A stretch of 64,000 nucleotides of DNA from an uncultured Bacteroidales bacterium (GTDB lineage: Bacteria > Bacteroidota > Bacteroidia > Bacteroidales > Bacteroidaceae). Location: the NCBI GenBank assembly GCA_945833885.1, contig CAMAFY010000002.1:62001-126000 (forward strand), given 5' to 3'. The position numbers and the translations under genes are program-made. A model generated the notes under the pieces. The model worked only from the letters and a program-made list of their open reading frames with translations. It ran no database searches and was not told where the DNA came from. Below, one piece after another: positions 610 to 64,000 of the stretch (positions are counted from its first letter, which is position 1; each line of letters opens with the position of its first letter).

Positions 610-2436
610 GTGAAACGTCTGCTTTTCCCCCTCCTTTTCCTTCTTCCCCTGCGCGTTCTCGCCCTCGTAGTGCCGGAAGGCCACTATTTTTTCGAGAATG
701 CCGTGACGCGATATTCCCAGGTGAAGTTCCTCTATGGCGCATCTTCTGACGGCGTTACCCACATCATCAGCCTTACGCCACAGGGCGGCACGCTGTGGAG
801 TTTCGACATCCGTGCCACCGCCGACGAACAGACGCACTATTTCTTCGCGGACACCACGCTCCCCGACGGCGAATATCCCGAGAGCATCGCCACATTGAAG
901 GACCGCATTGCCGGCGAACGCGGGGAACGACGTACGCAGACTTTCAAGGACGTCGACAACCTTCCCATGGTTCCCGGCGCCACTTTCGTGCCCGCCTCCG
1001 CCGACCTTTACACCACAGGTTATTGGATGGCGCCCGCCGAAACTCTGGTCAGCGGAACCTTGCCCACGCTGGTCATCACCACGGAAGGCGGAAAGGCCGT
1101 CACCTCAAAGACGGAGTATGTCGGCGCCACCGCCTACCTTCTGCCACCGGTTTCCGGCGAGGGGGCCGCTGACGAGGGCTTTTGTGCCGCCACAACCATG
1201 GGCGACGGGGAGCATCCTGTGGAACTTCTTATCCGCGGACGCGGCAACTACACGTGGACAGGCTTTGAAAAGAAACCCTATCGCTTGAAGTTCACGGAGA
1301 AACAGCGGATTTTCGGTATGCCGGCATCGAAGCATTTCGCCCTCATGGCCGGAGCCGACGACGACCTCGGACAACTCCGCAACCCCCTGGGATTTGAAAT
1401 CGCCCGCCATCTGGTACACGGTTGGACACCCCGCATGCACCCTCTTGAAGTGGTGCTGAACGGACGTTATATCGGACTTTACTTCCTTTCCGAGACCATC
1501 CGCATTGATGATGACCGCGTGAACATCGCCCAGCAGCCCGACAATCTTGCCGAAGGCGACGTCACCGGAGGCTGGCTTGTGGAGGTCGATAACTACAACA
1601 CCTCGCCGCATATCTCCGTCAGTCTGCCCGACAAGTCGCAGTCGCTTTGGGTCACTTATCACAGTCCCGAGGTGCTTTCGTCCGTGCAGAGCGACTATTT
1701 GCAGCGGCAGTTCACCCTTATTCGCGACGCCCTTTACAAGCCGTCCACCGCCTCCGCGACCTGGGATGAACTGATAGATGCGCGCACGATGGCGGAGGTT
1801 TATGTCACAAGGGAACTGCTTCAGGACGAGGAAGGCTTCCATGGCAGTTTCTATCTCTACAAGGATTGCGGCGAGGACTCCCGATGGATGGCAGGTCCAG
1901 TGTGGGACTTCGGCAACGCTTACCGCAATTCTCTCAACGATTTCACGTGGGATGCACCCAATTTCGAGTGCTTCCTCATCGACCGCCTCTACGCATTCCC
2001 GGAATTCCAGACGGCAGTCCGCGAGGCGTTCGGCCGCTATTACCATACGGTTCAGCCCACCGTCGTGCAGTATATCGACAGCCTTTCCACCGCCATCGGC
2101 AGTGCTGCCGCCTGCGATTTCCGCACCTGGCCCTCCTATGGTACCGACCGCATGAGCGAGAAGTCGGCGGAAATCTTGCGGAAGTTGCAGCAGAAGACCG
2201 AGTGGCTGGCGGCACAATGGGGCACGGAGTGGGACGGCATCGAGGCCCTTGTTGCCGATGACGGCGATGTCAGGGTGGAGTATTACGACCTCCACGGACG
2301 GCATGTCCTCACGTCTTCCTCCGTCTCTGCCGCCAAGATGTCCCCTGTTTTGCCGTCCGGAGTCTATGTCCGCCGGCTAGTCCGTCACGGCATTACGCTT
2401 TCCACGCAGCGCATCGTGCTGTCCGATGTGCGCTGA
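610..2436 (+). CDS. Secreted CotH-like protein kinase family protein
   Basis: The protein resembles CotH kinases, known from Bacillus spore-coat protein phosphorylation and common as secreted proteins in Bacteroidetes. Visible features are the motif RGRGNYTW followed by KKPYRLKF, the segment FALMAGADDD..LRNPLGFEIAR, the block VVLNGRYIGLYFLSETIR, and PVWDFGNAY, whose Asp probably corresponds to the metal-binding Asp. The C-terminal 60 residues (YYDLHGRHV...LPSGVYVRR) resemble the short tail found on many exported Bacteroidales proteins. I prefer GTG 610 as start because it gives VKRLLFPLLFLLPLRVLA, a clean signal peptide. ATG 562 and ATG 496 are in frame but lie within or before the terminator hairpin. 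The substrate is unknown and the gene appears monocistronic. Confidence 0.75.
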   Translation: MKRLLFPLLFLLPLRVLALVVPEGHYFFENAVTRYSQVKFLYGASSDGVTHIISLTPQGGTLWSFDIRATADEQTHYFFADTTLPDGEYPESIATLKDRIAGERGERRTQTFKDVDNLPMVPGATFVPASADLYTTGYWMAPAETLVSGTLPTLVITTEGGKAVTSKTEYVGATAYLLPPVSGEGAADEGFCAATTMGDGEHPVELLIRGRGNYTWTGFEKKPYRLKFTEKQRIFGMPASKHFALMAGADDDLGQLRNPLGFEIARHLVHGWTPRMHPLEVVLNGRYIGLYFLSETIRIDDDRVNIAQQPDNLAEGDVTGGWLVEVDNYNTSPHISVSLPDKSQSLWVTYHSPEVLSSVQSDYLQRQFTLIRDALYKPSTASATWDELIDARTMAEVYVTRELLQDEEGFHGSFYLYKDCGEDSRWMAGPVWDFGNAYRNSLNDFTWDAPNFECFLIDRLYAFPEFQTAVREAFGRYYHTVQPTVVQYIDSLSTAIGSAAACDFRTWPSYGTDRMSEKSAEILRKLQQKTEWLAAQWGTEWDGIEALVADDGDVRVEYYDLHGRHVLTSSSVSAAKMSPVLPSGVYVRRLVRHGITLSTQRIVLSDVR

Positions 2437-2735
2437 TTTCCTTCCTTTTCCTTCCATCTCCTCCCTCCTTTTTCTCGAAATCCTTTCTTTATTTCTTCCA
2501 TCTCTTCTCTCCCATCCCCCGAAATCTTCCCCTTCCTTCTTTAACTTCTCCTCCCCTTTTCCACGACCATCTCCCCACACTTCCTTTAATTCTCTCTCCC
2601 CCGTCCCCTCAAAATTCCCCCTTTTCTCCTTTAATTCCTCTTCTCATCTACTTCGATTATCTCCCCATACATCCTTGATGTTTTTCTCCCCGTTCCCTCG
2701 TTTTTCCATCGGTCTGCCCCCGTCATTCCTCACAT
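2437..2735. repeat. Pyrimidine-rich intergenic tract with about 22-, 45- and 90-bp internal periodicity
   Basis: Nearly 300 bp consist almost only of C and T on the + strand. Related blocks recur: CGACCATCTCCCCACAC at 2564 returns as CGATTATCTCCCCATAC at 2654 (90 bp), and a CGAAATC block at 2475 returns at 2520 (45 bp). Splitting the tract into units of 22-23 bp aligns CTCCC at many unit ends. No convincing coding sequence is present. It lies directly after the CotH-like gene and could also form a triplex or act as an R-loop-prone tract. Confidence 0.5.
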
Positions 2736-2882
2736 CATTTGTCTTTAGCAAAAATGAAAAATGCGTAATTTGCTGTAAACCAGCAAGATAATGGGTGAAA
2801 AACACTCGGAAATGAACGAAAAACTACAAAAAATGAATCAAATTGCATTTTGCAAAATCGTGACGTTTTTCGACCCTTAAAA

Positions 2883-3184
2883 CGCTGACTTCCAACATTT
2901 TGACTCTTTATTACAAAATGGTTTTTTGCCGTTTTTCGGGCGAAAAACTGGCATTTTCCCGCAATTTTGGGCCATTTTTGAGACAAAAATTGAAAAATGA
3001 TGAAAAGTCTTTCTCCTCGTTTCCGCGCACTTTTCCGCGAAAATGCAGATCTATCCTACACGCCTACACCCATCTTACACGCCATCCTACACGCAAAAAT
3101 CATCAATGTAGACTGACTATTTCCCCCAAAAGTGTAGGATGTGTAGGAAAAAATCGCAAAAAAAATATCTGGGAGAGGAGATGT
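2883..3184. repeat. Dispersed TCCTACAC/GTGTAGGA element, copy 1
   Basis: This copy starts near CTTCCAACATT (2889-2899) and ends after an A-rich tail with GGGAGAGGAGATG. It contains TCCTACAC-type octamers around 3053-3095 and, about 40 bp later, the opposed motif GTGTAGGATGTGTAGGA (3133-3149), so the halves could pair. The spacer has the pattern CAAAAATCATCAATG...GACTATTTCC, which is conserved in the other copies at 22625 and 62611. No protein is encoded. The element may be a miniature mobile element or a conserved RNA; I cannot assign it to a known family. Confidence 0.6.
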
Positions 3185-3240
3185 TATTTTTCTTTTCATC
3201 TTTTCCCCCCTCATACAACCTCTGATAATCGCGTGGTAAA

Positions 3241-3328
3241 GTTCCGATGATTACACCATAAAGTGCCGAACTTTGCAATAGAAAGTTCCGATGATAGGGA
3301 TGGAATGTTCCGATACATTGATTTGGTC
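3241..3328 (+). repeat. 22-bp degenerate tandem array (4 units)
   Basis: Units begin at 3241, 3263, 3285 and 3307, exactly 22 bp apart. Each starts GTTCCGAT or GTGCCGAA, and the first three end in AAA or AAT before the next unit. This is the same unit type as in the arrays at 6233 and 41618. The array sits upstream of the SusC-like pseudogene and has no plausible reading frame. Confidence 0.7.
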
Positions 3329-3703
3329 GAAACGTCATAGACAGGGCAAAGGATAAATCATAACAGGTTGAAGAACTTGTAAAACCTGAAAGAAAACCTG
3401 CCGTTTCCTGGCGGAAGAAGAGCCATTCAGAAGTCTTTTTTCCGAGGGAAGCGGCAGGCTTTTTCTGCCTTTTGGTGACTTTTTTGTTGATAAATATTCA
3501 AAATTTCGCAAAAAATGTTCGAAATTTGTCGCTTTTTCATGAAAAATTATTTACATTATGCTGACCATAACGTGCCGGGGATGATGATGAAAGCATGAGA
3601 TGCGATGCGGCACAATTACCGATTTTGGGAGAAGAGTCTTCTGAAATCAGTAATTTTTTTTCAGAATAAATTACATCTTTCCTCCACAAAAACTGCGAAT
3701 ATT

Positions 3704-5951: not shown

Positions 5952-6029
5952 CCTTTCCGCCGGATAGGTTCCGGCCGTTCCATCATTATCCTTGCCGGGG
6001 TTTCATGCCGAAGCCCCGGCTTTTCTTGT

Positions 6030-6470
6030 CTTCTTCCCCCGATTTTCCATGCGCTTTCTTCGGCCTCCTCGTGGTGTTTCTCCGCTTCTCCCACGCTGTT
6101 TCCCCAACTTTCCCATCGCCTTTCCCCGACATCCCTGCAGTCATTTGCGGGGGTGTTTGATGCTTTGGACTTCGTTCTTCGCGCCGCCTTTCGGAAGTCT
6201 GGAATCCCCCCTGTCGGAGACCTTCGGAAAAAGTGCCGCGTTTCCCGTCGGAAAGTGCCGCATTTTCCACCGGAAAGTTCCGATGTTTTCCACGCGAAGT
6301 TCCGATGTTTCCGCCAGCCTTTTCCGGGGGCGGCGTTCCGCGGCTCCTTCCCTCCAGCCTTCGCGTTCCCGCCCTTCGGGTTGCCACCGTCCGTTCCCGT
6401 CATGTCCTCAAGCGGGGCTTCCGGTGCCGTTCCCGCGCCCTTTCCCTGCGCCGTTTCCGCCCTCTGCGTA
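6030..6470 (+). repeat. 22-bp degenerate tandem array between the SusC remnant and nadB
   Basis: The clearest units start at 6233, 6255, 6277 and 6299: two of the type GTGCCGC...CGGAAA followed by two of the type GTTCCGATGTTT. Looser units can be followed in the same 22-bp phase downstream to about 6470 and upstream to about 6030 (for example two consecutive 22-mers beginning TTTCTCCG and TTTCCCCA). The order of unit types is identical to the array at 41618. Apparent reading frames in this region are by-products of the repeat. Confidence 0.65.
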
Positions 6471-6555
6471 AGCCTTGTAAAGGCTCTGTATCATCAACTT
6501 GTAGTGTCAGTTTTGCCGCGTGGCGGGGCTGGTGGGGCAATATTGCAGGGCAAAA

Positions 6556-6587
6556 TTTGCGGTGTTACGGAATAATGTATAAATTTG
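6556..6587 (+). promoter_or_regulatory. Bacteroidetes-type promoter of the nadB leader
   Basis: TTTG at 6556-6559 is followed after 20 bp by TAAATTTG at 6580-6587, matching the Bacteroidetes TTTG / TAnnTTTG promoter pattern. The expected start at about 6594 lies five bases before the first base of the conserved leader helix, which supports both calls. Confidence 0.65.
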
Positions 6588-6593
6588 CGCGGA

Positions 6594-6830
6594 ATTACAG
6601 GCGGGTTCTGTCAATGCCCTTTGCCGGATTCCGGCTCTGTTTTTCGCGATGGAAACTCATGTGATTGAAGGAAACCGCAGGCTATGCGGACCGGACGTGC
6701 GGGATTCCCAGACGGAAAAAGGGCGGAAGACGGCAGGAAACAGCCTACAAGCCAACGGTGAAAATCCACGCTGCCGATTGCCAGCCCCCGCCTACACTAT
6801 GTGGAGAACGAAAGTCTCCACCCCCATGTT
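6594..6830 (+). ncRNA. Candidate structured 5' leader L2 of nadB
   Basis: The leader runs from the predicted transcription start to the nadB start codon. AGGCGGG (6599-6605) can pair with CCCGCCT (6787-6793) and TCAAT (6611-6615) with ATTG (6777-6780), closing the structure. It contains GGGATTCCCAGACGGAAA (from 6701), continuing AAGGGCGGAAGACGGC, which aligns base by base with leader L1 at 420-455. A second hairpin (GTGGAG 6801-6806 / CTCCAC 6816-6821) sits just ahead of the start codon. I compared it by eye with cobalamin, FMN and TPP riboswitches and found no convincing match. Confidence 0.4.
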
Positions 6831-14516: not shown

Positions 14517-14619
14517 TCGGATATGATTCCTTGAAGGGTAGGTGCCACATCCCGCCGACGCGGCCTCCGGTTCGCTGCGGAAGGGTGTGGTGTCTACCCT
14601 TGTCATGTCCGGATTTTTC
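14515..14619 (+). terminator. Long terminator hairpin after the DUF2723 gene
   Basis: The outer arm AATCGGATATG (14515-14525) pairs with CATGTCCGGATT (14604-14615), and the inner arm AAGGGTAG (14534-14541) pairs with CTACCCTT (14594-14601). Five T follow at 14614-14618. The inner region can fold further (CCACATCCC against GGGTGTGG). Confidence 0.65.
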
Positions 14620-14646
14620 TGCCCTTTTCCCATCGTTCCCCCTATC

Positions 14647-14777
14647 GTCTGTCAGCGTTTCCCTTTGGTCCGCCGCCGTTTCCCTTGACGTCTGTCAGCG
14701 TTTTCCCTTTGGTCCGCCGACTTTTTCCTTGACGTCTGTCAGCGGAAGGGTGGTGCGTTGCCGCCGGGTATGACGGG
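14647..14777 (+). repeat. 22-bp array with 43/44-bp higher-order unit
   Basis: Two alternating 22-bp subunits, GTCTGTCAGCGTTTTCCC and GTCCGCCGACTTTTTCC, repeat so that GTCTGTCAGCG returns at 14647, 14690 and 14734. Subunits start at 14647, 14668, 14690, 14712, 14734 and 14756 (21 or 22 bp apart). The array follows the DUF2723 terminator. Confidence 0.7.
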
Positions 14778-14867
14778 GTTGATGGATTTCCCTACCTTGG
14801 ATTTTGTCCTGAATTTCCGCAGGAACAATTTTGGTCCGCTTGCTTTGGTCGTAGCATCCGCCTTATG

Positions 14868-14934
14868 CCAAGACGCAACCTGCAGAACAATAATAATATA
14901 TATGTGGTGGAAGTTTATGGCATCCACCTTATAT
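14868..14934 (+). repeat. Dispersed GTGGTGG...CCACC hairpin element, copy A
   Basis: This copy reads CAACCTGCAGAACAATAATA followed by TATGTGGTGGAAG...GGCATCCACCTTA, forming a hairpin. It is a diverged relative of copies at 18605 and 34902. It lies about 130 bp upstream of the secreted protein gene at 15073. Nothing else was recognised between it and that gene. Confidence 0.45.
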
Positions 14935-15072
14935 GTCTCTGCGGAATACGGAATATTGACTACCTTAAACAGGTTTCAGTATTTGGTCATCACAGACATC
15001 ACAAGCCCTTATCCACATAATCCAAATATCAACTACAAGTCTTTTTATATGATATCATAGAAACTCACTACA

Positions 15073-40114: not shown

Positions 40115-41470
40115 ATGTACAGTTTCATTGTTGAATACATGGTTCTTGCCTCAATCGTCGCAAATCTTATGTGCGCCGTCATGCTGGCGGTGCTGATGGT
40201 TTTTGTGCCCGCTATCGGCGAAAGGCGTCTTTACGGCAAGTACACTTGGGTCATTTTCGGGCTGGTGTCGGTCCTTTTCTTCTCACCCCTGTTTTTTGAG
40301 TGCAACCGTTCGGCGCTCGTTCTCTACAATTCCCTCATCATGATGTGGGTGGTGCCGTTCCAGGCGCTGATGGGAGCGAGGAATTTCAGGCACCATTACG
40401 GCAGTTTCAGACAGTTCCTCAATGATGCCTGGCCGGAGGCGCTGTTCCTCGTCTTCATGATTTCCGCATCCACGCTGCTGCTCCGCGGAACATGGTTCGA
40501 AACGTACGGACTGCAGATAAAGATTGTCACGATGCTGTTCTTCTCCATCTTCACGTTTTCCCTGTTGGTGAGCCTTGTCAGGATATATCAGGGATTGAGG
40601 AGAATCGTGGAAACTTCGGTAGAGGAGCCCAAGGAGATTTGGGGATTCCGTGGCGCCCACGACTTTAAGATGCTTCTCAACGTGGTGTTTTTCGGGGATT
40701 GCGTGGTGTTGGTCATCACCATCGTCAATTTCCTTTTCCTCACCGAGGAGACTTTCCTGATGCTTGTGATGGGAATCAGCATAAATAATGTGGCACTTGC
40801 CTTCCTGATTCTCGTGAGCGACATCACGGGAAGCGACATCATCTCGGTGAACAGTACGTTCCAGAGTTACATAAAACAGGAGATTGCCTCCCGCGACGCC
40901 TACTATTCCAGGGAGTATAACACCCTTGCGGAGCGTCTGAGCATCCTTGAAAAGAATGTGGAACTGTGCGCCGCCAGGGAAAAGAAAACGAAGGAACGGC
41001 AGAAGAATGCCGTGGAAGGGGCATCCGAAAGCGCGTCGGCGGACAAGAATGTTCAGAACTCCTTGCCCGAGGAGGTGGACTCGCTCATCTGTGCCGCGCT
41101 GAACATCTGGATTCAGAACCGTGGTTACTGTAAGCACGACGTCAATCTTGACCGCCTTGCCGTGCTCATCGGCACCAACCGTTCCTATCTTTCGCGCTGC
41201 ATCAACGACCATTGGGGCGTAGGCTTCTCCATTTTCCTGGCGCGACTGCGGGTAGACGAGGCTTGCAGGCTGATGTCCGAGCAGAAATACATGTCGTTGA
41301 TGTCGGTAGCCTACGCCTGTGGCTACAACGACAGTTCGTCCTTCACACGCTGTTTCAAGCAAATCCTGAAGGTGTCACCCACGGCTTGGAAAAAGGCGCA
41401 GGGACGTCAGCAGCAGAATCCTGAGGAGACGGAAACGGAAAGCGCGGAAGCATCTTCCGAAATCTCCTGA
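40115..41470 (+). CDS. Membrane-bound AraC-family transcriptional regulator
   Basis: A 451-residue protein. The first 240 residues contain about seven hydrophobic membrane segments (such as MVLASIVANLMCAVMLAVLM, WVIFGLVSVLFFSPLFF and LNVVFFGDCVVLVITIV). A coiled-coil linker follows (about 255-310), then a C-terminal AraC-type DNA-binding domain of about 100 residues. Its two helix-turn-helix parts are NLDRLAVLIGTNRSYLSRCI and MSLMSVAYACGYNDSSSFTR, ending in FKQILKVSPTAWKK. Such membrane-AraC fusions occur in Bacteroidetes and presumably sense an envelope signal. The target genes are unknown; neighbours are a peptidase gene upstream and convergent asnB downstream. A polar tail of about 25 residues closes the protein. 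Confidence 0.85.
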   Translation: MYSFIVEYMVLASIVANLMCAVMLAVLMVFVPAIGERRLYGKYTWVIFGLVSVLFFSPLFFECNRSALVLYNSLIMMWVVPFQALMGARNFRHHYGSFRQFLNDAWPEALFLVFMISASTLLLRGTWFETYGLQIKIVTMLFFSIFTFSLLVSLVRIYQGLRRIVETSVEEPKEIWGFRGAHDFKMLLNVVFFGDCVVLVITIVNFLFLTEETFLMLVMGISINNVALAFLILVSDITGSDIISVNSTFQSYIKQEIASRDAYYSREYNTLAERLSILEKNVELCAAREKKTKERQKNAVEGASESASADKNVQNSLPEEVDSLICAALNIWIQNRGYCKHDVNLDRLAVLIGTNRSYLSRCINDHWGVGFSIFLARLRVDEACRLMSEQKYMSLMSVAYACGYNDSSSFTRCFKQILKVSPTAWKKAQGRQQQNPEETETESAEASSEIS

Positions 41471-41617
41471 GGTTTTCAAGGCGCCGTACGGGCGACGTGA
41501 ACCGCGGAGGCGGAGAGAAAAGGTCTGGAAATCCGAAGTCCTTGATAGCAGAGGGCGGCATCGGGTTTCCGGACCTTTTGCATGTTGGCGGAACGGCTCC
41601 GGGATGCCGATGGGAAA

Positions 41618-41727
41618 GTGCCGCATTTCGCACCGGAAAGTGCCGCACTTTCATCGGTAAAGTTCCGATGTTTTCACGGCAAAGTTCCGATGTTTTCACG
41701 GTGATGTTTTGAGGGGGTGGGGAATTT
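41618..41727 (+). repeat. 22-bp degenerate tandem array, same unit order as at 6233
   Basis: Units start at 41618, 41640, 41662, 41684 and 41706. The first two have the type GTGCCGCA...CGG.AAA and the next two are almost identical to each other (GTTCCGATGTTTTCACGG). The order, two GTGCCGC units then two GTTCCGATGTTTTC units, is the same as in the array at 6233. The array lies downstream of the AraC-type gene. The rest of the gap 41471-42178 shows no gene. Confidence 0.7.
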
Positions 41728-41918
41728 TCCGCGATGAGGATTCGGAGAATGCCCTTCCACACTTGGGAAGGCATTGTGGCGGGAACCCGCGAAGCCCGCC
41801 GGAACACCCCGTCCGTTCGGCCTCTTCGTCCGCCCTTTCCCTTTATCCGCAGGGATTTGAATCCGGGAAAAGCAGGCGGAATCCGGCAATGCGGGTGTTC
41901 AGAATCCGCCAGAAACGC

Positions 41919-41956
41919 AGTACGGCTCACGCAAAGAGGATTGCGCGAGCCGTACT
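41919..41956. terminator. Hairpin between convergent araC-type gene and asnB
   Basis: AGTACGGCTCACGCAA (41919-41934) pairs with TTGCGCGAGCCGTACT (41941-41956) with one mismatch, giving a 16-bp stem with a six-base loop. No long T run follows on either side, but the position between convergent genes suggests a shared terminator. Confidence 0.45.
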
Positions 41957-42178
41957 TCCTTACTGCATTACAAAAACCTTTTGCGGTAGAGGTTTGTGGA
42001 ATCTACCTGAAAATTCAGCGATGCTCTTCTGTTTTGCCTGCCGTGGCAGGTGGAGGGGGTGGAGTGGCCTTTAAGTGACCGCCGTGATGGATTATGTGTT
42101 CTTCCGGACTGTTGCCGACATGGCGGGAAGAATCGTGCGTCCCCCTTTTGGAAAAGGTGTGGGGAACGCCGGAGAATC

Positions 42179-43888
42179 TTATGCCTCCTTTTCGTAAGCC
42201 TGTTCGTGAACCCCGGCAACGGCGCGTCCGCTGGGGTCGTTCAGATGGCGGAAAGACTCGTCCCAGGCAAGGGCTTCTGCGGTGGAGCACGCCACACTCG
42301 GCACACTCGGCACGCAGCGTGCGGCACTTTCCGAGGGGAAATGCTCGGCAAAGATGCAGCGATAGTAGTACTCCTCCTTGTTTTGGGGCGGATTGATGGG
42401 GAAGCGTTCCGCGGCATGCGCCATCTCCTCGTCGCTGACTGCGGCGGCTGTGATGGCTTTCAGGGTGTCGATCCACGAATATCCTACGCCGTCGCTGAAC
42501 TGTTCTTTCTGGCGCCACGCCACTTCTTCGGGGAGCATGTCGGCAAATGCCTCGCGGACGATGCGCTTTTCCATCGTGTTTCCCGGACACATCTTCGCCT
42601 GAGGATTGGTGCGCATGGCGATATCAAGGAACTCCGTGTCGAGAAACGGGACACGTCCCTCCACGCCCCACGCGGAAAGACTCTTGTTGGCACGGAGACA
42701 ATCGTAGAGATGTAACTTGGAAAGTTTGCGGACTGTCTCCTCATGGAAGGCCTGAGCATTGGGGGCTTTGTGGAAATAGAGGTAACCTCCGAAGATTTCG
42801 TCCGCACCTTCGCCCGAAAGCACCATCTTTATGCCCATGCTTTTGATGACACGTGCGAGGAGATACATTGGCGTGCTGGCACGGACTGTCGTCACATCGT
42901 AGGTCTCGATGTAGTAGATGACGTCGCGGATGGCGTCCAGTCCTTCCTGGATAGTATAGTTGATTTCGTGGTGAACCGTGCCGATATGGTCTGCCACCAT
43001 CCGTGCTTTCGCCAGGTCGGGGGCGCCTTTCAGGCCGACGGCAAAGGAATGCAGACGCGGCCACCACGCCACTGTCTGTGAGTCTTCTTCGATGCGGCGG
43101 GCGGCAAACTTCCCGGCAATGGCGGAAATGACCGATGAATCGAGGCCGCCGGAGAGAAGGACACCATAGGGAACGTCGCTCATCAGTTGGCGGCGCACGG
43201 CATCTTCAAGACCTTTCCGGATGGCTTCGGTGCTTGCGGAATTGTCCTTCACGGGGTCATATTCAAACCATTCGCGGGTGTAATACCGCGTCATGCCCGG
43301 TGTTCGACTCCAATAGTAGTGTCCGGGAAGGAAAGGTTCGTAGTCCGCACATTGGCCTTCGAGGGCTTTGAGTTCGCTCGCCACCATGACCATTCCGTCG
43401 GCGCTGCGGCCGATGTACAGGGGAATGACGCCGATAGGGTCGCGTGCGATGAGGAAAGCGTCGCGTTCCACATCGTAGAGCGCAAAGGCGAAGATGCCGT
43501 TGAGTTGCTCTATCATGGCGGTGATGTCGGCATGCGAGGGGGTAGGATGCTGCTCCAGCATCTCGCGATAGAGGGCCAAAATGACCTCACAGTCGCTGCC
43601 TGTCTGGAATGCATACCGCTCTCCGAGGCGCTGACGCAGGAGTTTGTGGTTGTATATTTCGCCGTTTACCGCCAAAACCTGCTTGCCATCGGGGGCATAG
43701 AGCGGCTGTCGGCCGGACTCAGGGTCGACGATGCTCAGGCGTTCGTGGGCAAGCACGGCGGAACCTTCGCTGTAAATGCCGCTCCAGTCCGGACCACGGT
43801 GACGGATTTTCTGGCTCATCTTCAGGGCCTGTTGACGGATTTCTGGGCTTTGTTGACGGATGTTGAAGAGGGAGACTATTCCACACAT
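42179..43888 (-). CDS. asnB: Asparagine synthase B (glutamine-hydrolysing)
   Basis: AsnB makes asparagine from aspartate, glutamine and ATP. The start is fixed at 43888 because the catalytic Cys must be residue 2 (MCGIVSLFNI). The glutaminase domain shows SQKIRHRGPDWSG, HERLSIVDPESGRQPL and LAVNGEIYNH. The synthetase domain has the pyrophosphate loop LLSGGLDSSVIS and further motifs LSGEGADEIFGGYLYF and GVEGRVPFLDTEFLD. At 569 residues the length is normal. It is monocistronic on the minus strand, with a TAnnTTTG element (TACTTTTG, 44002-43995) about 110 bp upstream. In many relatives asnB sits beside gltBD, but here it is separate. Confidence 0.93.
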   Translation of the reverse strand: MCGIVSLFNIRQQSPEIRQQALKMSQKIRHRGPDWSGIYSEGSAVLAHERLSIVDPESGRQPLYAPDGKQVLAVNGEIYNHKLLRQRLGERYAFQTGSDCEVILALYREMLEQHPTPSHADITAMIEQLNGIFAFALYDVERDAFLIARDPIGVIPLYIGRSADGMVMVASELKALEGQCADYEPFLPGHYYWSRTPGMTRYYTREWFEYDPVKDNSASTEAIRKGLEDAVRRQLMSDVPYGVLLSGGLDSSVISAIAGKFAARRIEEDSQTVAWWPRLHSFAVGLKGAPDLAKARMVADHIGTVHHEINYTIQEGLDAIRDVIYYIETYDVTTVRASTPMYLLARVIKSMGIKMVLSGEGADEIFGGYLYFHKAPNAQAFHEETVRKLSKLHLYDCLRANKSLSAWGVEGRVPFLDTEFLDIAMRTNPQAKMCPGNTMEKRIVREAFADMLPEEVAWRQKEQFSDGVGYSWIDTLKAITAAAVSDEEMAHAAERFPINPPQNKEEYYYRCIFAEHFPSESAARCVPSVPSVACSTAEALAWDESFRHLNDPSGRAVAGVHEQAYEKEA

Positions 43889-44567: not shown

Positions 44568-45179
44568 ATGACCAAAATACTTTATTATGTTACCATTCTA
44601 TGCGTGGTGGTAACGGCAATTACAGCCAATCGGCTCAAAAACGTCAATGAAGAGCGGCTCCGCCTCGAAAGAAACCAGCGGACATTGCTGAAGGATGCGG
44701 AGATTTACCGCACGGCAAACGGGCAATCTGCCGCAGCCTGCGAGGAATTGACGCTGAAAAACGAGGAATTGAAGGCCAACCGCCAGGACCTTTTGCAGGA
44801 AATCGCGGCGTTGCAGTTGAAAGTCAGGCGCCTGAAATCCGTCAGTCGCGTGGCAAGCGTCACGGAAACGCGGGTGACAGTTCCGCTGAACGACACCGTC
44901 CTTTCCGTTGAGCCTTCCGATATCTGCTCCGACTCATCTAATATTATTAGGGCGCGTGCGCTCGCGTGGAGCGATTCCTGGACCCGAATCGAGGGCGTTG
45001 TCACTGACGATTCCGCAACCATCAGCATCCAGTCCACCGACACTTTGATACAAGTGGTGCATAGAGTCCCGAAGAAATGGTGGTTCCTGAAATGGGGAAC
45101 CAAGGCCATCCGACAGGAAATCACCAGCAAAAATCCCCACAGCAGATTGGTGTATACCGAATACATCACCATAAAATGA
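44568..45179 (+). CDS. Membrane-anchored coiled-coil protein (DUF6549-like), phage-lysis-type
   Basis: A 203-residue protein with an N-terminal membrane anchor (ILYYVTILCVVVTAITA, residues 4-20), a long coiled coil (about 25-95, with NEERLRLERNQRTLLKDAE and LKANRQDLLQEIAALQLKV), and a beta-rich C-terminal domain ending RLVYTEYITIK. This layout resembles spanin-like or DUF6549 proteins found beside lysozymes in Bacteroidetes phages and phage-derived loci; the family name is from memory. The next gene downstream encodes a GH108 lysozyme, supporting a lysis-type module. It could act as a periplasm-spanning partner of that enzyme. Confidence 0.6.
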   Translation: MTKILYYVTILCVVVTAITANRLKNVNEERLRLERNQRTLLKDAEIYRTANGQSAAACEELTLKNEELKANRQDLLQEIAALQLKVRRLKSVSRVASVTETRVTVPLNDTVLSVEPSDICSDSSNIIRARALAWSDSWTRIEGVVTDDSATISIQSTDTLIQVVHRVPKKWWFLKWGTKAIRQEITSKNPHSRLVYTEYITIK

Positions 45180-45213
45180 CCGCCTTGCGACGGAAAAGCA
45201 GCATTCGCTCAGC

Positions 45214-45252
45214 GGTACTCCTCTATGAAATGATGGGTACTCCTCTATGAAA
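45214..45252 (+). repeat. Exact 17-bp direct repeat with 22-bp period
   Basis: GGTACTCCTCTATGAAA occurs at 45214-45230 and again at 45236-45252, exactly 22 bp apart. It lies in the gap between the coiled-coil gene and the lysozyme gene and shares the 22-bp spacing of the larger arrays. Confidence 0.7.
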
Positions 45253-45317
45253 ATACAATATTCTTAATAGGAAAAGCCTGAGGAATCATCATCAAACCAT
45301 TATTTACGAACCCAATA

Positions 45318-45378
45318 ACTTTGCGTTTTAAAAGGCTGAACATCAGTAATTTCAACAAAATTTTCCGCAGCCTTTTAG
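45318..45378 (+). promoter_or_regulatory. Promoter element and leader hairpin of the GH108 gene
   Basis: TAACTTTG at 45318-45325 matches the TAnnTTTG element; the expected start is about 45332. Exactly there begins AAAAGGCTG (45332-45340), which pairs with CAGCCTTTT (45370-45378), a leader hairpin ending 28 bp before the start codon. No clear upstream TTG element is visible. Confidence 0.4.
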
Positions 45379-45405
45379 GATTCTCACAAATAATCTCTAA
45401 TCAAT

Positions 45406-45975
45406 ATGGCACAGATTGAAGGAATTGTACGCCACATTCTGAAATGGGAGTGTGGAGCATCCCCAGCACAACTTAAGCAACATATCAATCCGGAAGCCCT
45501 CTTCAATGCGGTAAAGAAGACCACCAACAACCCCAATGACCCGGGAGGCTGGACCAATAGTGGCATCACTTTGGCCACATGGATCCAACGTGGCTTCGAC
45601 AATGACGGGGACGGCGACCGCGACCTTGCCGACCTCCGCGCCATGAACTTTGCACAATGGCTCAGCATCATGCGCAATGGATATTGGAAACGTGCGCTCG
45701 CTGACCAGATAAACAGCCAGAGTGTGGCGAATATGATTGTCGATTTCATGTTCACCAGCGGAGGTGCCGCCAAGTGTGTGCAGCGTCTCCTTGGAGTAGG
45801 TGCCGATGGTGTCTTCGGTCCGAAGACCATTACCGCCATCAATTCGCGCCCTGCCGAGGAACTTTTCTACACCATTCGCGACGCACGTATCAAATACTAC
45901 CGCAGCCTTTCGGCGTGGAAACACTTCGGAAAAGGCTGGACGAACCGCGTGATGGACCTTAAATTTGTGGGATAA
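45406..45975 (+). CDS. Glycoside hydrolase family 108 lysozyme-like protein
   Basis: A 189-residue muramidase-type enzyme expected to cut the glycan chain of peptidoglycan. The N-terminal GH108 domain has the catalytic Glu in IVRHILKWECG, followed by NNPNDPGGWTNSGITLATW, the family signature. The second half has the peptidoglycan-binding segment QRLLGVGADGVFGPKTITAI typical of the PG_binding_3 domain. There is no signal peptide, as in phage endolysins, so export would need a holin-like partner or another route. The gene upstream is a membrane coiled-coil protein and the one downstream a 1472-residue protein of unknown function. Confidence 0.88.
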   Translation: MAQIEGIVRHILKWECGASPAQLKQHINPEALFNAVKKTTNNPNDPGGWTNSGITLATWIQRGFDNDGDGDRDLADLRAMNFAQWLSIMRNGYWKRALADQINSQSVANMIVDFMFTSGGAAKCVQRLLGVGADGVFGPKTITAINSRPAEELFYTIRDARIKYYRSLSAWKHFGKGWTNRVMDLKFVG

Positions 45976-52446: not shown

Positions 52447-52753
52447 GAGCAGGTGTTTCGGGTTCGTGCGGTGGATATCCCGAACACATACAGCGGATAT
52501 CCCGAAGTCGCACATCGATATCCCGAAGCCGTACTGCGGATGCTGCAAGTGCGAGCAGCGGGTGGCTTGAATTCGAACAGCGGGTGTGTCAAGTTGGAAT
52601 GGAGGTTGCACTATATTCGGAATTCGGATGTTTCGGGAGTAGACTGCGGAAGTTTTGGGGGCAAACATCGGAACTTTCAAGATTAAACATCGGAGGTTTC
52701 GGGCAAAAAGTACGGCACTTCTTGTGGCAATCTTCCGACGTTTCCGCCTGAAA
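52447..52753 (-). repeat. Long 22-bp degenerate tandem array (about 14 units)
   Basis: Unit starts can be followed at 52447, 52469, 52491, 52513, 52534, 52556, 52578, 52600, 52622, 52644, 52666, 52688, 52710 and 52732: every step is 22 bp except one of 21. Units carry a core such as CATCGGAACTTT, CAGCGGATATCC or CAGCGGGTG; read on the minus strand the last units contain AAAGTTCCGATG, the same core as the arrays at 3241, 6233 and 41618. The array lies downstream of metG, beyond its terminator. The stretch 52234-52446 before it has no recognised feature. Confidence 0.8.
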
Positions 52754-52845
52754 AGGTTGTGTCACGCGTTTCCGCTCTCCGTTTTCCCGCCTTCACCGCT
52801 CCGGAGAGTGAGGCCGTACGGTTTGTGACATACGTCCGGAAAGCA

Positions 52846-53069: not shown

Positions 53070-55133
53070 TTATCCCACTTCGCTTCCGGGCATCACCTCG
53101 CGGTCGACGGTGACAACGCTGAGGCGACCGTCGTAGTTGGCGGCGGAAAGAATCATGCCTTCGCTGACAAGTTCCTCCTTACCAATCTTGAAGGTACGTG
53201 CTGGGAGGTTGGCAATGAAGACAATCTGGCGGCCGATAAGGTCTTCCGGATCATATTCCGCGGCGATTCCGGAGAGAATCTGGCGATTCTCGAGTCCGTC
53301 TGCAATGGTAAAGCGGAGCAACTTCTTGTTTTTCTTCAGCCGTTCGCACTCAATGACCGTGCCGACACGGAGGTCGAGTTTGCCAAAGTCGTCGATGGTG
53401 ACGTCGGGACGCACATCGTTGGCACGATAGTTCGCACGTTCGTTCTCGCGTTTGATGTTTTCGAGACGGTCGAGTTGCTGTTGGATGGTCGCATCATCAA
53501 TCTTTTCGAACAGGAGATGGGGCTTTTGGAGTTGATGTCCGGCGGCGAGGATGTCGGTGCTGCCGAGTTGTTCCCAGTCGAGATGGTCGATGGCGAGCAT
53601 TTCGCGGAGGCTTGCGCTGGAGAAGGGGAGGAAAGGCTCGAAGACGATGGCGAGATTGGCGGTAAGTTGCAGTGCTATGTGCAGGATGGTCGCTACCCGC
53701 TCAGGGTCGGTGGCGTAGATTTTCCAGGGTTCAGCGTCGGCCAGATACTTGTTTCCAATGCGTGCGAGGTTCATTGCCTCTTTCTGTGCCTCGCGGAAGT
53801 GGAAAGTCTCGATAAGTTGCTCCACTTCGGCCTTCACACCACGGAACTCCTCGATGGTTGCGCGGTCAGTTTCGGTCAGTTCTCCGCAGGTGGGAACGAC
53901 ACCGTTGAAGTATTTCTGTGTGAGTTGCAGGGCACGGTTGACGAAATTGCCGTAGACGGCCACGAGTTCGTTGTTGGTGCGGGCCTGGAAGTCCGCCCAT
54001 GTGAAGTTGTTGTCCCTCGTTTCCGGCGCGTTTGCCGTAAGTACGTATCTCAGGACGTCCTGTTTCCCGGGGAAATCGTCGAGGTATTCGTGGAGCCATA
54101 CGGCCCAGTTGCGCGAAGTGCTGATCTTATCGTTCTCAAGGTTGAGGAATTCGTTGGCGGGAACGTTGTCGGGCATGATGTAACCGCCGTGCGCCTTCAT
54201 CATTGTGGGGAAGATGAGGCAGTGGAAAACGATGTTGTCCTTGCCGATGAAGTGGACAAGCCGTGTGGTTTCGTCCTGCCACCATGTCTGCCAATCGCCC
54301 CATCGTTCGGGATTTCCCTCGCAAAGGTCCTTGGTATTGCTGATGTATCCGATGGGCGCGTCAAACCAGACGTAGAGGACTTTCCCGTCGGCACCCTCCA
54401 CGGGTACGGGTATTCCCCAATCGAGGTCGCGCGTCATGGCACGGGGTTGCAGGTCCATGTCGAGCCACGACTTGCACTGTCCGTAGACGTTGGCGCGCCA
54501 TTCGGTGTGATCGGTGAGGATCCATTGGCGCAACCACTGCTGATACTCTCCGAGCGGCAGGTACCAGTTCTTCGTAGGCCGCTTTACGAGGCCATGACCG
54601 GGGTTGTTCTTGTTCGTAGGATTGATGAGTTCGTCGGGACTGAGCGTCGCTCCGCATTTTTCGCACTGGTCTCCGTATGCGCCTTGTGCGTGGCATCGCG
54701 GACATTCACCGACAATGTTGCGGTCGGTGAGGAACTCTCCCGTCACCTCGTCGCAATACTGTTCCTCGGTGATTTCCTGAAGTTTCTGGTTGTCGTAGAG
54801 ATGTCTGAAGAAGTCTGCTGCGAACTTGTGGTGTGTGGGACTTGTGGTTCGGCTGTAGATGTCGAAGGATATGCCGAAGCGCTCGAAGGAGTCGCGGATG
54901 ATGTTGTGGTATCTGTCGACGATTTCCTGCGTCGTCACACCTTCCTTGCGTGCCCTGATGGTGACGGGAACGCCGTGTTCGTCCGATCCGCAGACGAACA
55001 TCACGTTGCGTCCTTTCAGTCTGAGGTAGCGCACATAGATGTCGGCCGGCACATAGACTCCGGCAAGATGTCCGATGTGAACACCGCCGTTGGCATAGGG
55101 AAGTGCGGCGGTGACGAGAGTGCGGTTGTACAT
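53070..55133 (-). CDS. metG: Methionyl-tRNA synthetase
   Basis: MetG charges tRNA-Met with methionine. The 687-residue protein has the class I signature HIGH in [13 protein letters not shown] (about residues 16-28), a zinc-binding knuckle with CPRCHAQG and CEKCG (about 143-162), the KMSKS-like loop DKISTSRN (about 335-342), and a C-terminal EMAP/Trbp111-type tRNA-binding domain from about residue 580 ([20 protein letters not shown]). It starts at ATG 55133 ([17 protein letters not shown]). The gene is monocistronic on the minus strand. It is flanked on both sides by 22-bp arrays with different unit types. A TAACTTTG element on the minus strand at 55700-55693 could start a transcript with a 560-base leader that includes the upstream array. 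Confidence 0.96.
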
Positions 55134-55223
55134 GTTTGTCGTGATTATGTAGGTGTTCGTTTATTGTTTTTCTGTCTGTGTAGGTGCCGCATCGCGGGAC
55201 TTTGGCGCCTACTTATTATAAAA

Positions 55224-55486
55224 TATTGATGTTCCGTGGTAAAATATTGCTGTTTCCGTGGTGAAAAGATGTAGTATCCGTGGCGGAAAGTTGTAGTATC
55301 CGTGGTGGAAAGTTGCAGTTCTCCGGGACGAAACAGGCTTGTGTTCCTGATAAAACAAAGTTGTGTTTCGGAAAATACAATGTAGTTTCTGAGGTGAATT
55401 GCTGCTTTTTCCGTGAAGAATTGCTGCCGTTCTCATAAAGAAGCGATGCCGCTCTTCGGGATGGGGTGACGCTTTATCCGTGGGTT
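55224..55486 (+). repeat. 22-bp degenerate tandem array upstream of metG (about 12 units)
   Basis: Unit starts are 55224, 55246, 55268, 55290, 55312, 55334, 55356, 55378, 55399, 55421, 55443 and 55465: steps of 22 bp with one of 21. The best-conserved units read GTTGTAGTATCCGTGG and end GGAAA; others keep TTGCTG and TTCCGTG. The array lies between metG and the divergent secDF gene. Confidence 0.8.
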
Positions 55487-55764
55487 CCGAAAACGGGAAT
55501 TCGGCAGTTCCTGCCCCTGTTTCCAGGCCTTTTCCACCCCGGTTCCAATCTCCGCACCCCCGTTCGACGGGAGTATATGGGCGAAAAGTCCGAACCATTG
55601 GGCCACAGCACCCGCTTTTTACCATAAAAAATGCTTGACGGTAGCATCCATAATGCACTGAGTCTTTGCGGATAATCCCGGAAAGCATGGCGCAAAGTTA
55701 AGGATAAATTTACAGAAAACGGGTGTTATGGCGTAAAAAAGCCCCTTTTTACCCCTCCATCACC

Positions 55765-58900: not shown

Positions 58901-58992
58901 TCTTTGGTACCTGTTCTTCTATCTTCCTTGCCGCTCCCATCGCCCTCAAGGTGATTGGAAAGCAGGCCAAGAAGGCTGCGGAAGTGGCTTGA
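55939..58992 (+). CDS. secDF: Protein translocase SecDF fusion
   Basis: SecD and SecF assist the Sec translocon in moving proteins across the inner membrane using the proton gradient. This 1017-residue protein is the fused form common in Bacteroidetes. The SecD half starts MQNKVFVKIIALLLGLICIF with LGLDLKGGMNVILEVSVPDV, a periplasmic domain containing a low-complexity Ala/Glu/Lys-rich insertion (about 250-330), and membrane helices with AGLVLSLGMAVDANVLIYER. The SecF half begins near residue 690 (FVIFAVLIVICGASLGIRGL, QGIDFTGGRNYVVEF) and contains ILTAIGYSINDKVVVFDRIR. Start ATG 55939 is chosen because earlier in-frame codons precede or overlap the promoter. A terminator follows. Confidence 0.96.
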   Translation: MQNKVFVKIIALLLGLICIFYLSFSFVTRHYESKAATMGEVAGKAFLDSLRQEEVYLGYTYKQCEELQIGLGLDLKGGMNVILEVSVPDVVKNLAGTNVSDPMVQAAIAEATVEAEQSSEDFLDVFIRKYQEKAGKNKLGGVFALKLKEANITPNSSDAQVRSALETEIKAAVSNSYQVVQNRIDRFGVAQPNIQILEGRGQMGQIMVEMPGIKEPERVRNLLQGSANLEFWECYTVSEINPALQALDARLAQSAKTEQADTAVTEAPAKEVAEVAEKAAKEDNVAEDLKNAAKIAKDGGEEAAPAPTAADEKAIAAAHAAHPLLSRLMQGMSGQSFISPTSCVVGFVNSADTAAVGELIRSAAAREVLPTDLVLAWGVKASDMFKGGNMFELYALRRTNGTAALAGDVIENAKDDYDQYHRPVVSMTMNTDGARDWAMITKKNLKRPVAIVLDGFVYSAPTIQSEITGGQSQISGNFSSQDTQDLANVLKSGKMPAPTTIVQEETVGPSLGAASVKAGFISCVVAFVFLMFFMVLYYGIIPGMVANCALLLNFFFTFGVLTSFQAALTMSGIAGLVLSLGMAVDANVLIYERTKEGLRAGKKVKEALADGYDNAFSAIFDSNLTSIITAVILYNVGTGSIRGFAMTLGIGIVASFFTAVWITRIVYEHFLNKEKWTGITFVTALSSRFATDTEFAFMKMARKSFVIFAVLIVICGASLGIRGLQQGIDFTGGRNYVVEFEQPVEPEQVKAAVQEKVGTEGTVSCLAIVTTSNPAIRISTSYKIEENGQEVDQEVEKLIWSALSDAKLIKADYATFKDRDNKTGGSIISAQKVGSSVAADMTRGAIIATFLSLFAIFIYILVRFRNVAFSLGAVGALAVDTFLIIGLYSICWGWMPFSLEVDQTFVGAILTAIGYSINDKVVVFDRIRENIGLYPTREPERLFNESLNSTLTRTIMTSLTTLLVLFCIFFLGGDAVRSFAFAMILGVVFGTCSSIFLAAPIALKVIGKQAKKAAEVA

Positions 58993-59034
58993 TTCCACGG
59001 CGGATGACGCTGTGAAAGCATGCCTTTCGCGTTG

Positions 59035-59082
59035 AAGGGTGTATCGGAAGCCGCAATCTTCCGATACACCTTTTTTCTTTTT
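59035..59082 (+). terminator. Intrinsic terminator after secDF
   Basis: AAGGGTGTATCGGAAG (59035-59050) pairs with CTTCCGATACACCTT (59058-59072), followed by TTTTCTTTTT. This is one of the strongest terminators in the window. Confidence 0.85.
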
Positions 59083-59288
59083 CGAAGGATTCCATTGAAT
59101 ATCCCCGTAAATCAATTCGCTTGTTTTAAGGATATACCCACCACCTTTATGCCGCCCCCCTGCTCTTAGGCACCGCGAATGCTGACGATTATGCTGCGAA
59201 AATCCGATGGCGCATAAAATAAAAGCCCGAAACCCGCGTTATAAAGTCAGTGAACACGGTGCAAAAGTGCCGGGGAATCCGCTCTGAA

Positions 59289-59597
59289 ATAAGGAAGATT
59301 CCGTATGGGAACATGAGATTGTCCGCATGGATGTATGGAAGATCCCGCCAGAATGTACGGAAGTTCCCGTAAAAAAGTACGGAGGATTCTTATCCGTGAA
59401 TGCGGAACTCTTCACTTGAGGACACGGAAGTCCCCGTAAAAAAGTACGGAGATTCCTGCAAAAAAACACGGAAGTTCCCATTCGTAAATGCGGAAGTTCC
59501 CATTCGTAAATGCGGAGTTTTCCGTCTGAAAGTGCGGAGGTCCGTGTTCCGTTCGGCGGAGGTGGCCGCATCCTGTTCCGAGGTCGGGGAGGAACAC
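59289..59597 (+). repeat. Long 22-bp degenerate tandem array (14 units)
   Basis: Unit starts are 59289, 59311, 59333, 59355, 59377, 59400, 59422, 59444, 59466, 59488, 59510, 59532, 59554 and 59576: steps of 22 bp with one of 23. The best units read ATGCGGAAGTTCCCATTCG, and most keep CGGA at the same place. The array lies between secDF and the WbsX-type gene. The remaining bases 59083-59288 and 59598-59721 show no feature. Confidence 0.8.
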
Positions 59598-59721
59598 TCC
59601 TTTCCCCCTTCCTCTATGTATAAATATTAATATTGAGTAGCACCGCCTTTTGTGGGCACGACCGGCCAACTTCGGTTGCATGCTCACGTCAGGTTTTACC
59701 AGCATCTACAATTCTCTCTGC

Positions 59722-63059: not shown

Positions 63060-64000
63060 TCAGGATAATCCCAGAATCACCTCAAGTGGCTGTTTTGTGA
63101 TGGATGCCACTTGTTCTGCCGTCATGCCTGTGGCGATCAACTGTCTGGCAATGTCCAGTTTTTCCGCCTCGGCCTTGGCTCGCAACTGCCTGGCAATGTC
63201 CAGTTTCTCCGCTTCAGCCTTGGCTCGCTCTTCCGCCCTTCCTTCGGCCCTTCCTTCGGCCCTTCCTTCGGCTCTTCCTTCCATTTTGGCTGTATCCAGC
63301 ACATCGTTCTGCACCATCATGTCCTCCATGTGTGCATCGTAGGCACGGCGGTCTTTGTCGCTCATCGTCATGTACAGCAGTTTCGCGCGGGCCTCTTGCA
63401 GGCCGGGGGTCGAGGTGTCGTCCTTGATATGGTTGTTCTTCAGGTAGTCGAGCCACTCCTCAATGGGGGTTTTGGCAACATCGTTGAACTCGTTGACGCG
63501 GATGATGTAGTATTCGGGGAACACGTCCTCGGGTACGGTCATCCTTATCTCGTTGTCCTCCTTGGTGTTCACCTCCAGACGGTCGCCGGTGTGTACGCCG
63601 GTAAACACCGTCTTTCCGTGATAGAGGTAGTCGCTACCCTTGCCCAGGTCGAAATAGAGGATGTTGATGGAATACACCTTCTTCACCTGGTCGTACTTGT
63701 GTCCTATCTGTATGTGCTCGGTGATGGCTTTGGAAACACCATAGAGAATGCGTTGCAGATAGTAGAGTTGTCGGGTTAGTTGCACCTCCACGATGATGAT
63801 TTCTCCCTTGCTGTTCTTTGCCTTTATGTCAACGCGGTTGAACTTCGCTTCGCTCGATTCCTGGTTTCCCTCGCTCTCCAGCAGTTCGCAGATGGTGATT
63901 TTCTCGCCAAGGAGCACCGTTATCAGGCCTTCCAGCACGGCGAAGTTCGCCTTGTCGCGCAACATCCGCTTCACCGCCCAGTCAAATCGTATGTACTTGT
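63060..64000 (-). CDS. Rpn-type PDDEXK nuclease / putative transposase family protein (start beyond window)
   Basis: The minus-strand frame is open to the window edge; bases 63975-64000 encode KYIRFDWA, the usual start region, so only a few codons are missing. It continues KRMLRDKANFAVLEGL, then the PDDEXK core with Asp in FNRVDIKAKN and the IIIVEVQL segment, typical of Rpn recombination-promoting nucleases. The C-terminal part has four consecutive EGRA units encoded by a 12-bp repeat, then two nearly identical copies of KAEAEKLDIARQL encoded by a 39-45-bp repeat; repeat number probably varies between strains. The end TAEQVASITKQPLEVI is a short helical tail. Such genes are common, multi-copy and mobile in Bacteroidales. 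Confidence 0.85.
   Translation of the reverse strand, partial: KYIRFDWAVKRMLRDKANFAVLEGLITVLLGEKITICELLESEGNQESSEAKFNRVDIKAKNSKGEIIIVEVQLTRQLYYLQRILYGVSKAITEHIQIGHKYDQVKKVYSINILYFDLGKGSDYLYHGKTVFTGVHTGDRLEVNTKEDNEIRMTVPEDVFPEYYIIRVNEFNDVAKTPIEEWLDYLKNNHIKDDTSTPGLQEARAKLLYMTMSDKDRRAYDAHMEDMMVQNDVLDTAKMEGRAEGRAEGRAEGRAEERAKAEAEKLDIARQLRAKAEAEKLDIARQLIATGMTAEQVASITKQPLEVILGLS

Follow-up and report, generated by a model that had tools for sequence, protein, structure and literature searches.

The nearest described element to the arrays reported here is BrickBuilt of Porphyromonas gingivalis, which, according to its description (PMC4596501), forms species-limited intergenic tandem arrays with a period of about two helical turns in a member of the Bacteroidales, as is the case here. 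In that description 19 copies are given, most of them with a leader and/or a tail and some with terminal inverted repeats, and the mismatches within an element amount to 0 to 11%, whereas the arrays here have a much weaker identity. PINSR, a 188-bp intergenic repeat described in 177 and 184 copies in two strains of Prevotella intermedia (PMC4755523), is lineage-specific and without terminal inverted repeats. Compared by description alone, it resembles the arrays here in lineage restriction and copy number and differs from them in being described as one 188-bp unit and not as a 22-bp array. REP elements with their RAYT transposases are also short palindromic intergenic repeats in high copy, although a fixed 22-bp register does not form part of their description as consulted (PMC3733652). 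The iterons of theta plasmids (lactococcal repB), as described in PMC3138775, are tandem units of the same length, 22 bp, thought to be bound by the replication protein, and form one array of 3.5 units at the origin; here the corresponding Rep_3 family (PF01051) is found in none of 58 genomes of the genus, and a plasmid iteron or decoy was rejected as the identity of the arrays.

In terms of geometry the arrays match the sites of BvgA~P, which, even where its sites are weak, is reported to bind as head-to-head dimers with a centre-to-centre distance of 22 bp and one monomer for each turn (PMC7250471). Its arrays at the fha and ptx promoters consist, according to the same source, of degenerate inverted half-sites with 22-bp centres, with BvgA~P all on one face; inverted half-sites with a 22-bp centre spacing are also found in the arrays here, and by analogy an in-phase binding of dimers may be expected. 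However, BvgA~P is described from single promoters in Bordetella, whereas the arrays here occupy an estimated hundreds of gaps in every orientation. Spacings of 11 and 22 bp between elements are also described for ArcA sites (PMC3798270). No report of a 22-bp pattern in Bacteroidales was found in the open-licence literature of PMC, a scope that leaves subscription papers aside. The genome paper of P. gingivalis W83 reportedly mentions a 22-bp direct repeat.

Sequences and methods

The window, that is the whole stretch of 64,000 nucleotides analysed (G000:C2:62001-126000), belongs to a draft genome (G000) of 3.1 Mb in 89 contigs which is 87% complete and comes from an uncultured member of the Prevotella group. 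Its methionyl-tRNA synthetase is 91% identical to that of two uncultured Bacteroidales bins and 87% identical to that of Prevotellaceae UBA1746. Arrays were called with a local scan, a sliding 88-bp test with an identity of at least 50% at a given lag. The unselected sample consisted of 11 stretches of the same genome (L089-L099, 220 kb) taken at regular places and blind to repeats. The 20 own-genome stretches also include nine (L100-L108) whose positions were chosen for their proximity to known 14-mer matches, and for this reason the resulting total of 68 arrays in 400 kb and the 80 arrays overall are enriched for the core family. Genes were called by simple ORF scoring, which gave a called coding density of 74% in the sample. 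The core-family model was built from the very arrays that it scores. Moreover, a threshold on total identity makes the conservation of core and of linker trade off in a comparison of columns, which is avoided by pairs defined by their core (n=88).

Results

An earlier note on this DNA had described about 14 abutting units at 52447-52753, following each other at 22-bp steps with one step of 21, and this array is real. When 52447-52754 is laid out in rows of 22 it fills 14 rows, with a single 21-bp step near 52513, and a CGG-type core holds the same columns in most rows. The array is situated in the gap between two convergent neighbours, a called gene ending at 50831 and the methionyl-tRNA synthetase gene (53070-55133, minus strand). 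It is composite, the left part (GGATATCCCGAA units) having a low core-family score (1.00) and the right part a high one (2.21), and both parts share nearly one register despite the change of consensus. The arrays of the window are the following:

52447..52760, no strand assigned: main array, about 14 units of 22 bp with one step of 21
2419..2738, no strand assigned: pyrimidine-rich weak 22/44-bp array, 3' of a CotH-domain gene (496-2436)
3179..3360, no strand assigned: 22-bp array, on-family, score 1.61
5992..6515, no strand assigned: 22-bp arrays, on-family (6184-6360, score 1.93; 6005-6167, score 1.30)
14586..14805, no strand assigned: 22/44-bp array, family score 1.19; TRF period 44 with 92% matches at 14646-14744 (dimeric higher-order unit)
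41550..41775, no strand assigned: 22-bp array, on-family (1.78 and 1.45), AAAGTTCCGATGTTT units, convergent gap
55179..55502, no strand assigned: 22-bp array, family score 1.14, divergent gap between the methionyl-tRNA synthetase and SecDF genes
59288..59601, no strand assigned: 22-bp arrays, on-family, CGGAAGTTCCC units, scores 2.06 and 1.60

Comparable arrays had been announced for at least seven other gaps. At a threshold of 0.50 there are six (2436-4023, 5951-6801, 14516-15073, 41470-42179, 55133-55723 and 58992-59650), and since a seventh (45164-45455) reaches 0.48 only, the higher count is true only if weaker gaps are included. A higher-order 44-bp structure was found in none of 51 long segments, although TRF reports 44 bp at 14646-14744.

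The autocorrelation that had been suggested as a check was run and gave peaks in the intergenic sequence of the window at lags 22 (0.296), 44 (0.297) and 66 (0.291), all other lags from 10 to 79 lying between 0.244 and 0.282. The coding sequence of the window showed mainly the codon period, and no peak at lags 22, 44 or 66 apart from it. In the local scan of the window lag 22 gave 12 matches, lag 21 three and lags 20, 23, 25 and 26 none. Bases shuffled within 22-bp blocks in the own-genome sample gave 0 matches in each of three trials.

The same picture was obtained in the unselected 220 kb, where lag 22 gave 24 arrays at 50% and 14 at 60%, lags 19, 20, 23 and 25 gave none, and lag 21 gave eight at 50% and none at 60%. 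Seven of these eight lag-21 matches lie inside ORFs of at least 150 aa, against one of the 24 lag-22 arrays. By extrapolation from these stretches, in which arrays take up about 1.8% of the bases, there would be roughly 340 arrays per genome; a 100-kb control from E. coli had no lag-22 array. With regard to position, 69 of the 80 arrays lie in gaps between called genes, eight near stretch ends where one flanking gene is missing, and three overlap called genes. Among gaps of at least 200 bp an array is present in 35 of 98 codirectional, 12 of 24 convergent and nine of 19 divergent ones, and in codirectional gaps the centre base shows no clear preference for one strand (59 C against 42 G units; 13 against 9 gaps).

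The description of the pattern as genome-scale, intergenic and non-coding is upheld. An assembly error, which had been named as a possible refutation, is unlikely because the arrays lie inside long contigs and a separate assembly, that of the relative G064, also has 22-bp arrays; two of 20 contig starts examined carry an array, the figure for random 400-bp windows being 4.8%. It was also correct that this is not CRISPR: the units have a degenerate 15-bp core and 7-bp linkers that resemble those of the neighbour, with no constant repeat between unique spacers.

The consensus unit from 80 aligned arrays is GGAAcTTTnnnnnnnAAAgTnC. Read from its AAA, it consists of a 15-bp dyad-symmetric part, AAA-N3-C-S-G-N3-TTT, and seven free bases. 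Scores exceed the 95% level of column-permuted units in 61 of the 80 arrays and in 19 of the 24 from unselected stretches; the arrays had been said to differ in consensus, and this holds in part only, most of them being variants of one dyad core in either orientation.

The exact core, with its centre base free, occurs 186 times in 464 kb, of which 169 are intergenic, giving a 28-fold density between genes. Pairs of exact cores in these 464 kb are spaced by 22 bp in 88 cases, by 44 bp in 62 and by 66 bp in 37, and all the other lags from 8 to 79 total two (55 and 77). The 11 unselected stretches contain 77 exact cores, 72 of them intergenic, with spacings of 22, 44, 66 and 88 bp only. Wherever a next exact core is found within 36 bp it is exactly 22 bp off (88 of 88), and the linkers of these 88 core-defined neighbour pairs match at 0.461, with 36 of the 88 sharing at most two of the seven bases. 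It is chiefly from this, a linker free in sequence and fixed in length, that we infer selection on spacing, and the earlier view of a constraint on helix-face spacing is upheld as an appearance. When one mismatch is allowed, 157 of 179 next cores are at 22 bp, and eight control motifs gave at most nine pairs at 22 bp against the 157 of the core.

The three-base words GTG, GTT, CAT, GTA, CCT, ATG and CTT make up 246 of the 278 half-sites of arrayed cores. Within a unit the two words do not correspond (identical in 13 of 139 units, 22 expected). Within arrays the dyad arms agree above permutation at six of seven pairs (z 2.5 to 5.9), as a hairpin would predict likewise, and since the half-site words are unmatched beyond chance this agreement is concentrated in the AAA/TTT ends and is possibly a result of good and bad units. 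One dyad together with a 22-bp period implies another dyad at a distance of 11 bp, so the second dyad seen there adds no evidence. In addition, 27 of the 80 arrays score low against the core family (below 1.2) and still have period 22, three of the 27 being palindromic by test. The 22-bp period thus extends beyond the dyad core, and part of it could be due to a register that was inherited. By the column-permutation dyad test 30 of 80 arrays in G000 are palindromic. In relatives 26 of the 44 arrays with lag 22 pass it, as do 21 of the 52 with lag 21 and 14 to 47% of those with the eight remaining periods; with a pass rate of 14 to 47% for nine periods other than 22, the test is too lenient and the dyad is not universal.

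The comparison of units in 69 arrays gave for core columns an identity of 0.64 between neighbouring units and of 0.469 between arrays, and for linker columns 0.46 between neighbours, dropping to 0.29 at a distance of at least eight units, and 0.275 between arrays. The decay of linker likeness with unit distance indicates that arrays grow by local duplication, which supports the earlier proposal of a duplication process with 22-bp register. The other proposal made at the time, cooperative binding of a protein, finds support in a core and a spacing that are kept where the linker sequence is free. The two are not mutually exclusive, and overall the earlier interpretation is partly supported.

The nearest sampled relative, G064, has 29 lag-22 arrays in 515 kb at 50%, of which 23 score at least 1.5, a cut-off set without a computed null, against a main unit other than that of G000, namely AAAnTGAYCAnTTT and a G-rich linker. 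Its core AAAnTGnnCAnTTT, with at most two mismatches, is spaced by 22 bp in 49 cases and by 21 bp in 14 (mean of other lags 0.70), the unselected stretches of G064 giving 46 and 13 for the same core. At 50% lag 21 exceeds lag 22 in G064 (37 matches against 29), with 29 of the 37 inside ORFs of at least 150 aa against seven of the 29. In G000 as in G064 it is mainly the genome's own core that is spaced by 22 bp. As an exact pattern the G064 core pair has no match in 58 genus genomes, which can be explained by the degeneracy of that core, the spacing emerging with one or two mismatches. The exact two-unit pattern of G000 was matched 289 times in G000 (2 for the reversed control pattern) and one to six times in each of five others among the 58 genus genomes, G000 included; the reversed control was matched three times in G064 and nine times in G012. 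In G064 the G000 pair had six matches against these three, being clear in arrays L174 and L175, and the unselected stretches of G064 have no exact pair. The matches of the reversed control pattern in G012 (TTTNNNGNCNNNAAA, nine at 22-bp spacing) are possibly that genome's own array core.

The library model of eukaryotic satellites holds that species amplify different variants. This is also seen in these related species, the dominant cores of G000 and G064 being different.

All 11 syntenic gaps compared that contain an array in G000 are without one in G064, the mean gap being 707 bp in G000 and 345 bp in G064; the G064 counterpart of the gap with the 55179..55502 array is without one (557 against 212 bp). 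Single arrays are therefore not conserved. Eleven syntenic gaps of at least 100 bp without a G000 array have none in G064 either, and are longer in G064 (579 against 257 bp), driven by two gaps of 1631 and 2473 bp. We infer that arrays were gained in G000 rather than lost in G064.

In 400 kb of G004, which belongs to the same genus, there is no array at lag 22. One stretch from each of twenty other genomes of the genus (355 kb) gave four weak to strong matches at lag 22 against three at lag 20 and two at lag 23, which taken together is no excess. Twenty stretches from 16 other genomes of the order gave at 50% eight matches at lag 22 against ten at lag 20 and eight at lag 23, again no excess, and at 60% three at lag 22 against none. 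Two loci that are close in terms of synthetase identity, L010 (12.7 kb) and L011 (22 kb), are free of lag-22 matches. Among 80 loci of relatives, whose titles are nearly all Bacteroidales, 33 matches at 55% were obtained with lag 22, against 1, 2 and 3 at lags 19, 20 and 23. Lag 21 gave 33 as well; a sub-period of 7 or 14 bp is present in 13 of these, and 20 of them leave an open frame (1 and 14 at lag 22). The 22-bp units of these relatives vary from species to species and many are inverted repeats (GTAATCAG/CTGATTAC, TTACCAA/TTGGTAA, AATATG-GGC-CATATT). A cultured commensal relative, Palleniella muris NM73_A23, has 22-bp arrays at its locus L039. The same 22-bp geometry occurs in other Prevotellaceae around unrelated, often palindromic, cores.

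Arrays based on heptamers (CAACGTT-like, and GGTTATT/GTTTATT units) were seen in other Bacteroidales (L031:2252-2493; L080:6870-7073) and explain part of the excess at lags 14, 21 and 28. Arrays of 21 or 23 bp that seem not to be built of heptamers are also present in some relatives, in part with inverted-repeat units (L055:7496-7679; L141:17255-17394; L032:18660-18842), so 22 is the commonest and not the sole two-turn period.

Discussion

The explanation that we tentatively favour, and to which we would give a little less than an even chance, is that the arrays are satellites of binding sites, made by duplication, in which the core and the 22-bp spacing are kept by a putative dimeric DNA-binding protein on one face of the helix. 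Local tandem duplication would make the 22-bp units in intergenic gaps and partly homogenise them. A putative host protein, acting as a dimer, would recognise the dyad AAA-N3-C-S-G-N3-TTT with one monomer per helical turn, and the dimers would sit side by side on one helix face, probably in a cooperative manner. Dimers packed in this way would place the core and a centre spacing of exactly 22 bp under selection and leave the 7-bp linkers free to drift, and arrays would come and go quickly as each species amplifies its own core. The off-family arrays (27 of 80), the share of 21-bp steps in G064 and the array-free counterparts of all 11 syntenic gaps are points that count against this reading. 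If such a protein exists, the arrays most likely have a structural role, as a scaffold of the nucleoid or of domains or as insulation separating genes, and not the control of one regulon, since they are found in codirectional, convergent and divergent gaps alike and beside ordinary genes.

The main rival is plain satellite or minisatellite turnover without a binding protein, in which slippage or unequal exchange in whole units passes on the 22-bp register while the sequence drifts. It has to add dispersal by some other route, and an amplification of different variants in each species as in the library model. We regard it as a real possibility, if on balance a doubtful one. Turnover of this kind would account for the decay of linker identity from 0.46 to 0.29, for the unrelated and mostly non-palindromic units of the off-family arrays which keep 22 bp, and for a main array that switches consensus within nearly one register; the presence and absence of arrays in sister species also fit it. 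What it leaves unexplained is that linkers between exact cores vary in sequence and never in length (88 of 88), that arrays have the core in common and not the linkers, and that 22 bp stands out in the 80 loci of relatives with unrelated units.

Strings of RNA or single-strand DNA hairpins, REP-like and serving in termination, in mRNA stability or as transposase substrates, are in our view very unlikely. The centre of the core leaves a one-base loop, strand preference is not clear, the half-site words are unmatched beyond chance, and the window has no Rfam family match at gathering score (0), all of which weigh more than the facts that the units are inverted repeats whose arms agree at six of seven pairs and that on either strand array RNA is somewhat more stable when folded than dinucleotide-shuffled sequence (mean z -1.45 and -1.42, and below -2 in 28 and 23 of the 80 arrays). 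Moreover Y1 transposase is weak in the array genomes, with one partial match of 8.3e-10 in G000 and one sub-threshold match with a stop in G064, whereas G004, which has no arrays in 400 kb, has two good ones. Other genus genomes have at most five, and REP/RAYT was rejected as these counts do not follow the arrays.

Curvature directed by the sequence alone, through A and T tracts every 11 bp and with no specific protein, is still less probable. It is true that A+T oscillates at 11 bp in the family units (power 0.251 against 0.129 block-permuted), in G064 (0.243 against 0.125) and in off-family arrays (0.177 against 0.125), but the arrays in the 80 loci of relatives hardly show this oscillation (0.129 against 0.110) and for curvature a conserved C-S-G core is unnecessary.

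The arrays can hardly be what is left of a MITE that, like BrickBuilt, contained a minisatellite: BrickBuilt is described from the same bacterial order as intergenic, in many copies and of similar period (23 nt; PMC4596501), and a partial dyad symmetry is likewise present in its consensus (9 of 11 pairs, a value reached by 214 of 5000 shuffles), but the period here is 22 and not 23 (no array at lag 23 in 220 kb), the estimated copy number is far higher, the units are far more divergent, and no leader, tail or terminal inverted repeat was seen in the 150-bp flanks of 80 arrays compared all against all, a comparison with 20 cross-locus matches of which those listed (15) measure 18-58 bp and resemble further units past the called ends.

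To return to the proposed dimeric protein, none cognate to the arrays was found among the families searched. The number of HU-HIG paralogues was rejected as a correlate, as it does not follow the arrays: there are four in G000, four in G064 and three in G004, array-free in 400 kb, with one to 12 in other genus genomes and an outlier of 30 in G072. PDDEXK_2 is present in 19 of the 58 genomes, with two copies in G000 and four in G064, both array-rich, and none in G004, G042 and G045; yet G009, G012 and G015 have one each and no lag-22 array in a single 20-kb stretch of each. In G000 two PDDEXK_2 nuclease genes are neighbours (window 63060-63974 and G000:C2:126503-126913), the first containing tandem 45-bp and 12-bp repeats (63138-63281). 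These PDDEXK_2 nucleases are Rpn-like.

Two arrays had no match in plasmid records and one of them none in phages either, searches in which a low-complexity filter may hide repeats. A phage origin was rejected, the exact two-unit pattern having no match in viral contigs and a three-unit core pattern one. This lone viral match (L215:957-1158) is on a 14-kb contig with a terminase gene and consists of about four 22-bp units of the same core geometry at one end. A regulon was rejected as well: eight core places in G042, G045, G060 and G064 adjoin different genes, in a comparison by eye from first residues that covered these sites apart from one in G042 and those of G004, and no regulon is therefore seen.

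Conclusions

Little satellite DNA is known from bacterial genomes. If no protein is involved, the arrays would offer a clear example, in bacteria, of satellite turnover in which the register is inherited. Should their phase be maintained by a protein, they would represent a novel type of nucleoprotein scaffold extending over the genome, and an example of a DNA-binding specificity changing together with hundreds of its sites. They might even be, in a lineage of Bacteroidales, a counterpart of centromere-like satellites, in which the specificity of a nucleoid protein shifts in each species and hundreds of arrays are rebuilt with the two-turn geometry alone conserved; this is an attractive idea that we nonetheless consider rather unlikely.
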